From assembly GCF_947077765.1 (NCBI RefSeq), contig NZ_CAMTTF010000006.1, forward strand, positions 1 through 64,000: a stretch of 64,000 nt of DNA, in the 5' to 3' direction. The stretch is from Salinibacter grassmerensis (GTDB lineage: Bacteria > Bacteroidota > Rhodothermia > Rhodothermales > Salinibacteraceae). This document shows positions 43,747 to 49,548 of the stretch, one piece after another. The first letter of the stretch is position 1. Each line of letters begins with the position of its first letter. Below the pieces are notes generated by a model that worked only from the letters and a program-made list of their open reading frames with translations, searched no databases and was not told the origin of the DNA. The position numbers and the translations under genes are program-made.

Positions 43747-45096
43747 TCAAAGTGCTGCCGGCTCAACACCAGCGATCTCGAATCGGGCTCCTCCACTGTT
43801 GCTCTCGGACACCGACAGGGACCAGCCGTGGGCTTCCGCGACTTCCCGGACAATCACAAGCCCCAGCCCAGTTCCTCCCTCACGGGTGCTGTGCCCCGCC
43901 TCAAAAACGGTCTCGCGTTGCTCAGGAGGGATACCTGGGCCGTCGTCCGCGACAAAGAACCCGTCTTCGGTTCTGCTGGCCGTCACGGTGGCCGCCCTCC
44001 CGGCGTGGTCAATGGCATTGCGGAATAGGTTCTCCAGGAGTTGCCGCAGGCGCCCCTCGTGGGCCAGAAAGCCCGAACACGTCTTCGAGGAACCCTCGGT
44101 TCTAGCCTCGTTCTCGACGCAGAGCGTTGCGTCCGGACTACCAGCTTGCTCCCAGGACGCCTCGGCGGCATCTCTGAACCGAACCGCCGTCACATCGTCG
44201 GGCCCGAGGTTCTGATCCCCGTGCGCCAGGGCAAGGGTGTCGGTAATGATTCCCTCCATGCGGTCCAGGGCTCGTTTGGAGATCCGCAGGTGTTTCTGCA
44301 GCTTTTCCACCTTGGTCTTTTCCTCACCATGCTCGTCGTCGAGGGCCTCCGATGGCTCGTTCGAGTCGAGATCCTCGGAGTCGAAGAGATGCCGGGCCAT
44401 GTACAGGTTCATCTGGGCCGCATTCAACGGATTTCGGAGGTCGTGGGTGACCAGCTCGGCAAACTGCTCAGTGCGCTCTCGGGAGCGCTGTCGCTCGAGC
44501 TCGTAGCTCGCCCAGCGGGTCAGAAGCTCCACGAGTGCTTCGTCTTCGTTGCTGAACGGACGGGCCCGGGCTTCTTGGGATGCAAAGCAGAACGTGCCGT
44601 AGAGTTCTCCCTCCACCTCAATCCGGGACCCAATGTACGCGCCGAACCCGAACCGCTCTCGGGCCGGATCCGCCTTCCAGCCGTCGGCCGGCGCATTCTG
44701 GATTGACAGAAGCTCCTCCTGGCCAATGGTTCGCCGGCAGTAGGCCTCCGAGAGCGGACAAGTCTCCCCCGACTGAAGAAGTGGATGGTCGCCGGAGGCG
44801 TACAAGATTTTCTGGGTGGCCTTTGCCTGTCCCGAGGATGCCCCTACTGATTCGGGGGGCGCGTCGTCCTCTTCGTCCCCGAGGGACTTTGTCTCTTCAA
44901 TGCGGGTCAGAAATCCGTAGGGAAGCTCCAGGTGTCTTCTGCCGAGGTCGATCAGGCGACGGGTCTTCTCCTCAAAGGTCGCCTCCCCGTCGGCGGTAAT
45001 CCGGTACATTCGTCGGAAGACCGACTGCTCGTTCGAGGAAGAACTCTCCGGAGACGAGCCCTCCTCTGAGTGTCGTTTTGTCTTGCCGTCAGGCAT
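43747..45096 (-). CDS. GAF-domain histidine kinase of haloarchaeal style
   Basis: Soluble sensor kinase of 449 residues. An acidic Ser-rich start is followed by a GAF-type sensor typical of haloarchaeal kinases: 'FEEKTRRLIDLGRRHLELPY', 'GFLTRIEE', 'GETCPLSEAYCRRTI' and 'GELYGTFCFASQEARARPFS'. Then come the phospho-acceptor helix 'FAELVTHDLRNPLNAAQMN' and the ATPase 'LLENLFRNAIDHAG', 'FFVADDGPGIPPEQR' and 'GGTGLGLVIVREVAEAHGW'. The start at 45096 has GAGGT nine bases upstream. No response regulator lies nearby, so it is an orphan kinase. The long acidic insertion between the two kinase helices ('DSEDLDSNEPSEAL') is typical of salt adaptation. Confidence 0.9.
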   Translation of the reverse strand: MPDGKTKRHSEEGSSPESSSSNEQSVFRRMYRITADGEATFEEKTRRLIDLGRRHLELPYGFLTRIEETKSLGDEEDDAPPESVGASSGQAKATQKILYASGDHPLLQSGETCPLSEAYCRRTIGQEELLSIQNAPADGWKADPARERFGFGAYIGSRIEVEGELYGTFCFASQEARARPFSNEDEALVELLTRWASYELERQRSRERTEQFAELVTHDLRNPLNAAQMNLYMARHLFDSEDLDSNEPSEALDDEHGEEKTKVEKLQKHLRISKRALDRMEGIITDTLALAHGDQNLGPDDVTAVRFRDAAEASWEQAGSPDATLCVENEARTEGSSKTCSGFLAHEGRLRQLLENLFRNAIDHAGRAATVTASRTEDGFFVADDGPGIPPEQRETVFEAGHSTREGGTGLGLVIVREVAEAHGWSLSVSESNSGGARFEIAGVEPAAL

Positions 45097-45670
45097 GGTA
45101 GGTACCTCAGTGCAAATCGGGATTGGCAACGCGAGGAAGCCCCCTTTTCCTGTCGTTCTGTGGCATGCTAAGGCGAGCCCCTCTCGAATTCAATTATGAC
45201 GCGCACGGGCAAATAATTCGCCGGAACGGACCTTCATCGGGCGAGCCCAGGCTCATCTCCAGACAGTGCGTGTGGGCGCACAGATCGGAGCTTGAGTTGT
45301 TGGGGCAGACGATGAATGCAGCAGCAGCCCAAGCGACTTCGAGAATCTGTCGAGGTTCGAAGGCCTCAGCACAATCGAAATAGGGAGAGGGAGCCCACGC
45401 CCAAGAGAAAGCCCACGTCCAACCCGGCATGTGGTCTCGGCGGATAGTATCGGCCGTCGAGGGGGCACTCCGTAGAGGGAGCATCGCCGAGGCAAGACCG
45501 GAACAGATCTGTCCGGTTTGGGAACAGAACCTTCCCTGCGGCGCGGCTTTGCCTGGAGGAGCACGTCGGCAGTCTCAACTTTGGGAAACAACGAGGGCAA
45601 AGGATGGCCGCTAGAGACGGATGGGCCTCCCCCGATATTGGTAGGACGGGGACGCAAAACCAGTGGGCTG
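45097..45670. other. Intergenic between two reverse-strand genes
   Basis: No gene seen; overlapping frames have no motifs. Confidence 0.4.
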
Positions 45671-46618
45671 TCAATCTGAGAACGACTCCGCACCCGGCAG
45701 GTCCAGAAGAAATTGGGTGTAGAGAACGCTCTTCTGCGTGAACTTCTCCCGCAACGCCTCCAGGTCCGGACTCGACGCGTCTTGCGTCCAGTCTGCCCAG
45801 ACTGGGTCCTCCGCGCACGTCTCCCAGTCGAGGGTTACCTCGACTGCGCTGAGTCCCGCAAACTCAGGCCCCATGGTCTTCGTCAAGAGGTTGGCCACGT
45901 GGACTGCACGCACGTCCCGATTCGCCTCTGTCACCTCGTCGTCGTGATGTTGCTTCGCGACCGTGGCCAGAGACTCCGGGAGATCCAACGTCTTCGCCGC
46001 CCACGCTCCCGCCTCAGCATGGTCGTAGCCGAAGGCCGCACGCTCGCGAACTCGGGGGCTGGCATTTCTATATTCCCGACCGGCTTGGCGTTGGTCGTAG
46101 AGGGCAGCCGCTGTCTCCGGGTAGTTGTAGATCAACACGAGCTTGCCCAGGTCGTGGATGAGCCCCTTGGTAAACCCCTCCCACCGCAGCAGCGTCTTCT
46201 GGTCCCGGTCCGGCTCGGTGTCTTCACCAGGCCGATCATGCAGCATCCTCTGCACGAGCGCCCCTGTCGCTTCGCTGTGGTAGATGAGACGGGTGAGGCA
46301 CGGAGCAGCAGGGCCCTTCAGGAGCGCATTCCACCGCCGCATGCTCAGCTCCACGATCAGTCCTGCCGCCGTTATCGGGCCGATCATCTGAACCCCCCGC
46401 TCCAGATTATCAATTGGCCGCCGGAGCCGGCCGTTGATGTGATTCAGGATCCGCCTCTCGAGACGGGGGTCTGCATTTATCGCTGCGGAAATGGCCTCCA
46501 GACCGACGCCCCCTGATTCATGGAGAGGCGCTAAGACTTCTGAAAGCCCCCGCGGAAGCAGGGGCACGTCCAGGTCAATTTGCTCCTCGGTGGCGCCGGG
46601 AGGGTCCGTGTTGTCCAT
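45671..46618 (-). CDS. HDOD-domain signalling protein
   Basis: 315 residues. 'LPLLPRGLSEVL'-like opening: 'VPLLPRGLSEVLAPLHES', then 'AISAAINADPRLERRILNHI' and 'IDNLERGVQMIGPITAAGLI', the HDOD hallmarks, followed by an HD-like core 'GFTKGLIHDLGKLVLIYNY' and 'FGYDHAEAGAWAAKTLDLP' with 'VAKQHHDDE'. It therefore keeps the His-Asp residues of an HD fold, although HDOD proteins are generally not phosphohydrolases. No attached GGDEF, receiver or kinase domain is present. The reverse-strand neighbour is an orphan sensor kinase, so the two might act together, but spacing (about 570 nt) argues against one transcript. Confidence 0.88.
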   Translation of the reverse strand: MDNTDPPGATEEQIDLDVPLLPRGLSEVLAPLHESGGVGLEAISAAINADPRLERRILNHINGRLRRPIDNLERGVQMIGPITAAGLIVELSMRRWNALLKGPAAPCLTRLIYHSEATGALVQRMLHDRPGEDTEPDRDQKTLLRWEGFTKGLIHDLGKLVLIYNYPETAAALYDQRQAGREYRNASPRVRERAAFGYDHAEAGAWAAKTLDLPESLATVAKQHHDDEVTEANRDVRAVHVANLLTKTMGPEFAGLSAVEVTLDWETCAEDPVWADWTQDASSPDLEALREKFTQKSVLYTQFLLDLPGAESFSD

Positions 46619-47646
46619 CAGCCAGGACGAAGCAGGTGACGATGAAGGTCGCCAAAAAGATACACGTCACTCGGAAAGGGGTTCAGCCCTCCAGGCTCGT
46701 TCCACGGGAAGGGGACCTACTGCCCATGGATACCTGGTCTTGCACGAGTATCGGATGCGAGCGTAGGCCCCCATGGTGCCCTTGTTTCCCAGATCCAGAT
46801 GCCCGTCACACAGCCGTAGGCCTGAGTGTAGTCTACAGGTCCCACGACCGCATGGGGCACTTACGACAGGGTCGTGCTCAGTCTGATAATTATCGTTTCA
46901 GGCATTCTCGAATGAACAGCTGGAGCATCGAGACCGTGGGGTTGTCGGTTTAGTGAGCAGGTGGCTCCTGACAGGGAGCCTCCCTCGAAGAGCCAACAGG
47001 TGCAGACCCCAGGGGGGGACCAAATACACTAACTTCCTTGGGATCGATTCGTGTGTGGTCCGCAGTCAAGACACTGGACCAGAGCTATGCGAGGACAGCC
47101 TGACTGTTATTTGGCGTCTGAGAACTGGTTCGAAAATACCGGAGGCGGAGGTCGTCGCGTCATAAAACCCCGTGGCCGCGGCAAAGCGAGTTTGTATACC
47201 AGAAGTGCGGGAGACCGGCGCTCGTGCTTCCACTTCACTGTGAGCCCGGTCAAGGTCCGTTCTTCCTCGTCCTTTTGTTAAGCAAGCGCGTAGGGTCGGG
47301 GGTTTCGTACTTCGGCATGTTTATTGCGCCGGGATAGGATCGACCGTCATAAAGCCTTCCCCGCCGTCCCCGCACGCTGAGATCGACACCCCCACAGACT
47401 CCATCCCTTTAAGCTGAGAATGCTTTTATGGACCCGATCGCGTCGACTTGACTGTTCCAGGACATCGGTGGCCGAGAGTCACCTAGACCATTCTCTTTTC
47501 GTTTACCTCGTGACCAGATGCATAAGGAGACTCAACAGATGAAAGAATGAAATTAGCACTCGACAGTGTACTGTTGGTCCATTTCGTCTTCCTCAGTAAC
47601 GATTCTCCTTCAGGGTCACTTTTTCCCGAAATATTTGCCACGTGTA
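46619..47646. other. Long non-coding stretch before the actin-like gene (about 1 kb)
   Basis: No gene found. I looked for a ParR-type gene or a repeated parC-like site upstream of the actin and saw neither; the only open frames are short and without motifs. In particular, no frame just before 47647 encodes the missing D-x-G motif of the actin. Confidence 0.5.
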
Positions 47647-48666
47647 ATGTTTAAAACCAAAGAGTTTCCAAGCGTATTCGAGGCCAGCACTGCTGAACTC
47701 GTCGACGTATCGAACAACCTGCTCACTGGGTTGAAGATTAACCACAACGGGAGCAGCTATGTCGTCGGCGAACTTGCCCTGCTTGAAGGAAATACCCCGC
47801 ACAAGGGCATCAACAACGCTCCGTCCGATCTGGACTATCGCCTGTTGCTACGGGCCGCTCTGGCGGTAGCTAAGTCCGGGATTGAAGGTCCGATGTGCAT
47901 CACCACGGGATTCCCGTCTTCCACCTACGGGGCCAATCGGGATGCGGCGAAGGACCTGGTGGAAGGAGCGCACACTATTGACATTGACGGGCGCACTTTT
48001 GGGAAAAGCCCGGATGTTAGCATCGAGGTTGAAGTTGACCAGGTCGAGGTCATTCCCGAAATTGAAGGGTTTATTTCCGGAGTACGGCGGGGGAAGCTAA
48101 ACGAGCGCGATCCGTTCTTTGCCGTCGGGCTCGGGTACGGCACCATGGAGGCTGCCCTCAGCCTTCCCTCTGGCATCGTACAGAGAACCACCACATCCGC
48201 CAGTGGCCTTCAGTACGCCACAAAGCTCATGTCTGATCGTCTTCAGCAGGAGCATTACCTGGACATGCTTACGGACCATCAGCTTGACATGGCGATGCGC
48301 GAGGGCACGATCGTGATCGGTCGAAGGAAGATGGACCTTACCGATCTGCGTCAAGATGTGCTGTCGACCTACTACGAGGACGTTGTTTCCCCGACACTCA
48401 AGCGAGCGTTCGACGACAGTGACTTCGGTCGCGCAGAAAAGATGTACGTCGGTGGGGGCGGGGCGCTGTTCGACGAGCTTGTCGACGACTTCACCGATGA
48501 GTTCGGGGACATTTTGTCCTTGAAGATCGTCCCTGACCCCGCTTCGTTTATCAGTCAGGGGTATGCGCTACACGCCGCGGATGTCGCCCGCCGGGATCGA
48601 GCCGTGGGGCTCGATATCGGCAACGCCAACACGGTAATCAACCTCTTCGAGGAAGAGAGCGTGTGA
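47647..48666 (+). CDS. Actin-like (ParM-type) ATPase with the order of motifs of a circular permutant
   Basis: 339 residues. It begins at what is normally the third strand of the actin fold: 'FPSVFEAS', 'NGSSYVVGELALLEGN', then 'CITTGFPSSTYGANRD' and 'VEVIPEIEGFI' as in ParM/Alp proteins. Phosphate-2 is 'FFAVGLGYGTMEAAL' (residues 157-171) with Gly161 in place of the usual Asp. The adenosine motif is 'MYVGGGGALFDELV' (267-280), followed by 'PASFISQGYALHA'. The phosphate-1 motif, normally residues ~5-15, appears only at the very end: 'RAVGLDIGNANTVIN' (318-332), stop at 339. Role inferred: plasmid segregation filament. No ParR partner is visible nearby. A bactofilin gene follows. Confidence 0.85.
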   Translation: MFKTKEFPSVFEASTAELVDVSNNLLTGLKINHNGSSYVVGELALLEGNTPHKGINNAPSDLDYRLLLRAALAVAKSGIEGPMCITTGFPSSTYGANRDAAKDLVEGAHTIDIDGRTFGKSPDVSIEVEVDQVEVIPEIEGFISGVRRGKLNERDPFFAVGLGYGTMEAALSLPSGIVQRTTTSASGLQYATKLMSDRLQQEHYLDMLTDHQLDMAMREGTIVIGRRKMDLTDLRQDVLSTYYEDVVSPTLKRAFDDSDFGRAEKMYVGGGGALFDELVDDFTDEFGDILSLKIVPDPASFISQGYALHAADVARRDRAVGLDIGNANTVINLFEEESV

Positions 48667-48685
48667 GCGACTCAGCTTTGCACTG

Positions 48686-48721
48686 AGGGGCCTGCTGCAC
48701 TGGAATGATGTGCCCCTTTTT
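48686..48721 (+). terminator. Rho-independent terminator after the actin-like gene
   Basis: AGGGGC (48686-48691) pairs with GCCCCT (48712-48717), followed by TTTTT. It separates the actin-like gene from the bactofilin gene, so the two are probably transcribed separately. Confidence 0.65.
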
Positions 48722-48846
48722 GTGTGGTACGATGCGATGCCACGAGCGACACTCATAGGAGGACACTCGTTGGAGGAAAGTCTCCGCTCAATCCCGACGT
48801 AACTCTCTTCAGTGGCCCAGGCCCTTTCACGTTCCGTGCTTTCTTC

Positions 48847-49548
48847 ATGCTCCCCTTTGGCAACTGGTCTTCATCGAGTAGAGAGCACCCCCTATCCGTC
48901 CCGGATGCCTTTTCCGGTTCAGTCTTGCACCGGGACTGCACCGCTGAAGGGACCTTTAGCCTCGAACATTCCGATCTCCTCGTGAAGGGACGTCTGTGCG
49001 GGCCCATTACGACCGAGGGATGCGTGTACATAGCTGAAGGAGGATCCACTTTGGGCCCAGTTTACGCATCGAGGGTGCTTGTAGAAGAGGGCGGGAAGGC
49101 AACGGGAATCATTCGTGCCTCGAAGGTACAGATCGGAGGCGTTCTGAATGCGGTTGTCCTTGGGTTCAATCGTGTCTCAATCCTGAAAAGTGCGCACGTG
49201 CGCGGCGCCATTCTCACTGCTAGCGAAGCGACATTTAAGGTCGCACTCGGGGCTCACTTTACGGGAACAGTGAGGGATGTGGGCCAGCCCCTTTTGAGGC
49301 CCATCTTGCCCGGGCGGGGCCACGGGACCCTCAGCGACTCGGTACCGACCCTAGCCCATCCTACAGATGCCTCCGGCGCGTCTCAAGGGCAGGAGGGAAC
49401 ACTGCCGATCAAGCGGCCCGAGGAGGAGCAGACGACGGTATCTGTGACGAAGGAGCCTTCAGGCGACAGTCTTCCCCTTCCCTCACGGCCTACTGAGGGA
49501 CTGGAAAGCGATTCAGAGGCGGCGGAGGATTTCGGAGTCGACTGGTAA
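48847..49548 (+). CDS. Bactofilin (polymer-forming cytoskeletal protein)
   Basis: 233 residues. The central ~110 residues are the right-handed beta-helix of bactofilins (DUF583) with regular short rungs: 'CTAEGTFSLEHSDLLVKGRL', 'GPITTEGCVYIAEGGS', 'GPVYASRVLVEEGGKATGI', 'RASKVQIGGVLNAVV', 'AHVRGAILTASEATFKV' and 'GAHFTGTV'. A short N-terminus precedes it, and an acidic, disordered C-terminal tail of about 75 residues ('SDSEAAEDFGVDW') follows. Bactofilins form nucleotide-free filaments used to place other machinery, including ParAB complexes in Myxococcus. ATG 48847 is chosen because the open frame upstream has no family resemblance. Its position beside an actin-like gene suggests cooperation (inference). 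Confidence 0.9.
   Translation: MLPFGNWSSSSREHPLSVPDAFSGSVLHRDCTAEGTFSLEHSDLLVKGRLCGPITTEGCVYIAEGGSTLGPVYASRVLVEEGGKATGIIRASKVQIGGVLNAVVLGFNRVSILKSAHVRGAILTASEATFKVALGAHFTGTVRDVGQPLLRPILPGRGHGTLSDSVPTLAHPTDASGASQGQEGTLPIKRPEEEQTTVSVTKEPSGDSLPLPSRPTEGLESDSEAAEDFGVDW

Follow-up and report, generated by a model that had tools for sequence, protein, structure and literature searches.

Gene content of the locus and family distribution

The window, by which we mean the whole stretch of 64,000 nucleotides analysed here, carries on its forward strand a gene for an actin-like protein of 339 residues, with an open reading frame running from an ATG at 47647 to a stop codon at 48664-48666. We use cp-actin as a working name for this circularly permuted actin-like protein. 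A bactofilin gene comes next; its PF04519 domain scored 46.3 bits against a cut-off of 27.9, and it begins 57 bases after the cp-actin stop codon if the GTG start is used (Table 1). Upstream, on the minus strand, are a putative GAF/histidine-kinase-like ORF (43747-45129) and a putative HDOD-like ORF (45671-46618), the latter separated from cp-actin by roughly 1 kb in which no gene is evident. Around the cp-actin gene, searches for promoters, terminators and Rfam families gave nothing beyond chance level.

Table 1. Positions of the cp-actin gene, its motifs and the neighbouring bactofilin in the window
Feature	Position	Strand	Evidence
Circularly permuted actin-like protein cp-actin, 339 aa	47647..48666	+	ORF; ALP_N; AlphaFold
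New N-terminus MFKTKEFP, the strand after the P1 hairpin in ordinary actin-like proteins	47647..47670	+	Structure alignment
Glu138, position of the catalytic Glu of ParM/MreB/Hsp70	48058..48060	+	E in 64/64; profile alignment
Phosphate-2 loop FFAVGLGYGTME, residues 157-168, Gly161 in place of Asp	48115..48150	+	Alignment
Adenosine motif MYVGGGGA, residues 266-273	48442..48465	+	G270-G272 invariant 64/64
Linker from old C-terminal helix to relocated hairpin, residues 313-318	48583..48600	+	Alignment; model
Relocated phosphate-1 hairpin AVGLDIGNANTVINLF, residues 319-334	48601..48648	+	Model strands; invariant core
Bactofilin, ends ...DFGVDW	48847..49548 (likely ATG 48847; GTG 48724 also open)	+	PF04519 E 5e-12
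C-terminal Trp codon of bactofilin, proposed docking residue	49543..49545	+	Trp counts

Homologues were detected in 12 genomes among the 60 relatives searched; one of these homologues, with 59% identity, is a paralogue in the host genome itself. Scanning one genome per species over approximately 85,000 species yielded 58 cp-actin loci, distributed among Salinibacter, Balneolales, Roseivirga, Cyclobacterium, Lunatimonas, Belliella, Parapedobacter, Bacteroidales and others. Across the phylum, 24 of 395 sampled genomes have the family, as do 48 of 391 genomes of the Roseivirga family and about half (6/13) of those from the genus of the window. Comparison with the closest relative gave a dN/dS of about 0.09 (0.099/1.06), indicating purifying selection. 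The host genome carries a separate canonical MreB, hence cp-actin is not a replacement of MreB.

The earlier note had framed this gene as a plasmid ParM, a framing that was not supported. A plasmid- or element-type ParM segregation system of unusual layout would fit the presence of ParM and Ta0583 among the closest solved folds, as well as a match to the 'partition protein' family phrog_691 (E 1e-19). However, the relatives of cp-actin sit in chromosomal-looking neighbourhoods, and tblastn searches of plasmid and phage collections plus two viral-contig scans found no clear relative, the only match in those collections being PRTRC-D at 23% identity. Furthermore, no ParR gene was identified beside cp-actin, where the bactofilin follows instead, and no parC-like repeat array was seen, the repeats found being a single 12-nt pair within 46600-47660, with nothing in 48660-48900. 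We regard such a segregation system as highly improbable; the cp-actin family is chromosomal.

Motif order and the relocated phosphate-1 hairpin

Along the cp-actin chain the motifs occur in the order phosphate-2 (P2), adenosine and phosphate-1 (P1), with P1 at residues 319-329 (AVGLDIGNANT), which breaks the P1, P2, adenosine order that is a feature of ASKHA proteins. The earlier note had described this order within a single frame, and it was seen in all members of our alignment of 64 sequences (approximately 36-83% identical, from Bacteroidota, Rhodothermota and Balneolota). Its placement of the D-x-G motif GLDIGNANTVIN at residues 321-332 of 339 was also exact. The same permutation cut was found in 64/64 aligned homologues, P1 lies at or near the C-terminus in 58/58 loci, and full-length members open with the same strand, in which P8, S9 and E12 are invariant among homologues having that residue. 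The linker that precedes the hairpin measures 6-9 residues in all except two of the 64 sequences, in which it reaches 24 and 28 residues.

A frameshift, a wrong start or a mis-assembly might mask a normal N-terminal P1 motif and thereby mimic this layout. Nevertheless, the layout is identical in dozens of independently sequenced genomes, and three-frame scans of 57 upstream regions turned up a loose P1-like pattern in only one of them, which argues against a hidden upstream P1 or a wrong start and agrees with the earlier claim that no P1 exists at the N-terminus or upstream. Residues A319, G321, D323, G325 and N326 are invariant in 64/64 sequences, which together with upstream regions devoid of P1 argues that the permuted motif is neither a product of chance nor a sequencing error. 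We therefore assign the artefact a negligible probability.

Profile searches gave the same picture. The Pfam family ALP_N (PF17989) matched residues 4-138 of cp-actin (E 5e-13; 49.9 bits against a curated cut-off of 26.3), with the match beginning only at position 18 of the 148 in the profile, so that the N-terminal domain is incomplete when the native protein is read in order. A weak MreB-like_C match covered residues 178-274, and MreB_Mbl gave no match at E 1. When the C-terminal piece was moved to the front, ALP_N matched from profile position 1 and the score rose from 49.9 to 56.4 bits (+6.5), and the same rotation raised the scores of two other members from 38.4 to 42.0 and from 33.6 to 36.9 bits (+3.6 and +3.3). 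These gains are modest, yet they go in the same direction all three times, and profile positions 1-17 were matched after rotation only. The native family profile aligned to Hsp70 in three out-of-order blocks (319-340 to 4-25, 129-215 to 166-253 and 252-317 to 318-384), the relocated hairpin in its native order thus pairing with the N-terminus of Hsp70. Likewise, the N-terminal P1 of MreB, FtsA and Hsp70 sequences aligned onto the C-terminus of cp-actin members. Matches of a single-sequence query to U2AF RNA-binding domains in the PDB were discarded, as they were weak, local and gone with a profile query.

The AlphaFold2 model of cp-actin, built from a 30-row family alignment, displayed a confident two-domain actin fold (pLDDT 91.5, pTM 0.89). 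The structure prediction proposed as a check in the earlier note supports its reading, with confident C-terminal strands at residues 319-324 and 328-334 and a mean pLDDT of 92 over residues 321-330. The solved structures nearest to the model were Ta0583 (Foldseek E 3.9e-15, probability 1.00), pCBH ParM, Dh-cParM1 and CorM, and they remained the same for a second model, that of the relative with the 28-residue linker, in which the linker is disordered (pLDDT about 46) and the hairpin is not (about 91). VIA Z values were 25-28 for ParM, Ta0583 and CorM, with alignments that begin past the P1 hairpin of those chains. Model residue 1 pairs with residues 19-24 in most of the Ta0583, ParM, T. maritima MreB, DnaK and actin chains, bearing out the earlier statement that the protein starts just past the P1 hairpin, and the alignments end near model residues 313-317, which correspond to the C-termini of the compared chains. 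Exactly the relocated hairpin was thereby left unaligned by an apparently sequential aligner. The hairpin probably docks onto strand 2-8. Among viral proteins, the best structural match to the cp-actin model was Gp506 of Bacillus phage G (Foldseek E 1.8e-18).

A terminal hairpin on a tether, with a linker of up to 24-28 residues in two members, brings to mind donor-strand exchange, in which the C-terminal P1 hairpin would complete a neighbouring subunit and polymerisation would build the nucleotide site. We consider this very unlikely, since most linkers have 6-9 residues and the hairpin is placed confidently in single-chain models. Taken together, the sequence, the family-wide conservation and the two structure models support the conclusion that cp-actin is almost certainly a true circular permutation of the actin fold, with its P1 hairpin at the C-terminus.

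To look for unpermuted close relatives in the phylum, 296 genomes were searched with ALP_N, and every match started at profile positions 16-21 and lay at the place of a cp-actin. A looser search with phrog_691 mostly returned proteins that by length resemble MreB, FtsA and DnaK, and in addition one ordinary ALP of the same phylum (L115) with an N-terminal P1 (GIFVCDLGFSSAKW).

Active site of the family

Actins and Hsp70 have an Asp in the phosphate-2 loop, another ASKHA feature, whereas the loop of the cp-actin family reads (S/G)-L-G-Y-G-T-x-E. The site of this Asp, position 161, is occupied by Ser in 59 sequences and by Gly in five, and none of the 64 has Asp; in contrast, the ordinary ALP mentioned above retains it (GIDIGFNT). 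Thus, cp-actin is a member of the actin family by fold that lacks two of its usual defining features, namely the motif order and the P2 Asp. The earlier note proposed that the permuted layout would alter subunit contacts at the filament end; the loss of this Asp, which it does not mention, has a more immediate bearing on how the protein may work as an ATPase.

The remainder of the cleft is conserved. Glu138 aligned to the Glu of the 'INEP' motif of Hsp70 in the profile alignment, and invariance (n=64) extends over the P1 Asp, Glu138, the Gly and Thr of P2 and the GGG of the adenosine motif. The invariance of the P1 Asp and Glu138 suggests that cp-actin may bind nucleotide. Meanwhile, the missing P2 Asp suggests that ATP is probably hydrolysed slowly while nucleotide binding is kept, which would favour stable rather than strongly dynamic polymers. 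The Hsp70 chain that scored best with the family profile has the sequence FSLGGGT, in which Ser takes the place of the P2 Asp, and the Hsp70 matches also include a chain deposited as a D199S mutant. Hsc70 mutants of this type hydrolyse ATP poorly, and cp-actin is a natural case of the P2 Asp loss that D199S made artificially in Hsp70.

The absence of the P2 Asp from all members and the pairing of the gene with a scaffold-forming partner would also fit a non-polymerising regulator with an actin fold, a pseudo-ATPase with weak or no nucleotide binding that acts as an adaptor to the scaffold of bactofilin. Such a degree of invariance around the cleft is unexpected if the cleft is unused, and we consider this alternative rather unlikely.

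A probable bactofilin partner and a proposed cytoskeletal module

A bactofilin lies directly downstream of cp-actin on the same strand in 42/58 loci, over three phyla, often with a 1-base overlap or fewer than 20 bases between the genes. Both Salinibacter paralogues have their own bactofilin (two of the three bactofilin genes in the host genome are the neighbours of the two cp-actins), and the pairing extends to more distant genomes. Mapped onto a 63-member tree, the occurrence of this neighbour can be accounted for by as few as about 4-5 changes, which makes the pairing look old, although near-copies contribute to this figure. The neighbour is not obligatory, since 16/58 loci have no adjacent bactofilin, one of them on a contig that ends shortly after the gene. 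We consider a partnership between cp-actin and bactofilin probable. Certain alignment columns set the bactofilin-linked members apart (K30, P82, D245 and others), but these track phylogeny too closely for interpretation.

The linked bactofilins share a C-terminal Trp. This is the last residue in 40/42 of them and the penultimate one in the other two, so that all 42 have it within the last two positions, counts that do not represent independent events because the linked bactofilins are phylogenetically related. A further linked bactofilin, at locus L103, lacks it. The tails diverge otherwise (DNYGTVAW, NFPRTW, DRFW and DFGVDW). No terminal Trp was found in 57 bactofilin frames that lack an immediately adjacent cp-actin, drawn both from genomes that carry cp-actin and from genomes that do not. 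The tails of ParR and FtsZ are docking peptides, and by analogy we lean slightly towards the view that the Trp tail docks on cp-actin, a partner suggested by the gene pairing.

Based on these findings, we postulate, as the more probable overall explanation, a permuted actin, probably with slow hydrolysis, which acts together with the bactofilin encoded in its operon. The old C-terminal helix is joined through a short linker to the P1 beta-hairpin, the new termini open between this hairpin and the next strand, and the permuted chain would still form one actin-type subunit with a nucleotide cleft. We infer that cp-actin polymerises; it would bind nucleotide, hydrolyse it slowly and build stable polymers, and docking of the bactofilin Trp would link the actin polymer to the bactofilin scaffold. 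The most likely role of such a module would be in cell shape or in the spatial organisation of the envelope.

Several known systems resemble cp-actin in part. ALP/ParM-type proteins (Ta0583, pCBH ParM, Dh-cParM1, pSK41 ParM and Alp7A) share with it the actin fold, ALP_N and the weak MreB-like_C match, whereas cp-actin has a C-terminal P1 hairpin, a replaced P2 Asp, a chromosomal location and a bactofilin instead of ParR/parC. CorM of Anabaena (cryo-EM 9rmi; VIA Z 25 to the cp-actin model), FcmB and BeeR are chromosomal bacterial actins that, like cp-actin, are neither MreB nor FtsA, and FcmB displayed weak sequence similarity to the family (E 3e-4 for one member). A new cyanobacterial actin-like family and BeeR have been described (PMC12645912; PMC11929497), and the portion of the BeeR report cited here mentions no permutation, unlike cp-actin. 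The circularly permuted GTPases YqeH, YlqF and cpRAS (PMC2430557) also have a nucleotide-binding fold with a family-wide permuted motif order, in a fold that differs from that of cp-actin.

Neither a permuted actin nor an operon or pair of actin and bactofilin came up in our search of the open-access literature. If our interpretation is true, no earlier case of a naturally permuted actin, or of a system uniting actin and bactofilin, is known to us, and the cp-actin family suggests a type of bacterial cytoskeleton that has yet to be described. Actin subunits polymerise via surfaces set by the fold and the chain ends; a conserved permuted actin implies that the fold tolerates being cut and rejoined, with the termini shifted to a new surface. 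The repeated bactofilin-Trp pairing offers a direct and testable link between the actin-like cytoskeleton and that of bactofilins, and ring-shaped bacteria are among the lineages concerned.

A model for the role of the partner is the Helicobacter bactofilin CcmA, which according to its abstract acts in helical cell shape (PMC9507126); that abstract mentions no actin-like operon partner, and the bactofilin of the window differs by its C-terminal Trp. A cell-shape role of cp-actin and bactofilin is conceivable, and we propose it tentatively. More speculative still is the idea that, in Bacteroidota, Rhodothermota and Balneolota, a polymer of hydrolysis-impaired permuted actin, joined to bactofilin via the Trp tail, might help to set cell curvature. 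Cyclobacterium, including the strains behind L042 and L045, is ring-like or horseshoe-shaped (PMC3744694; PMC7232363). All 12 Cyclobacterium genomes examined carry the family. Lunatimonas and Lunatibacter, genus names that refer to crescent shape, carry the cp-actin and bactofilin pair. Roseivirga carries the pair too and is rod-shaped, so ring shape is not a general correlate of the gene and curvature should be taken as a lead only.

Loci without a bactofilin neighbour displayed features of their own. In five Parapedobacter loci (L066, L067, L069, L070 and L072), cp-actin lies between genes for a predicted dihydrolipoamide dehydrogenase-like protein and a predicted LacI-type regulator. The cp-actin at L058:8001-9296 has its own tail of about 90 residues, which ends in ...LISGTW, with Trp last. 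Among the cp-actins of L025, L059, L060, L066, L067 and L069, several end in short aromatic tails (GAFGWE, ASYGGF, SEFLEG, SAFLED), which might stand in for the bactofilin tail.
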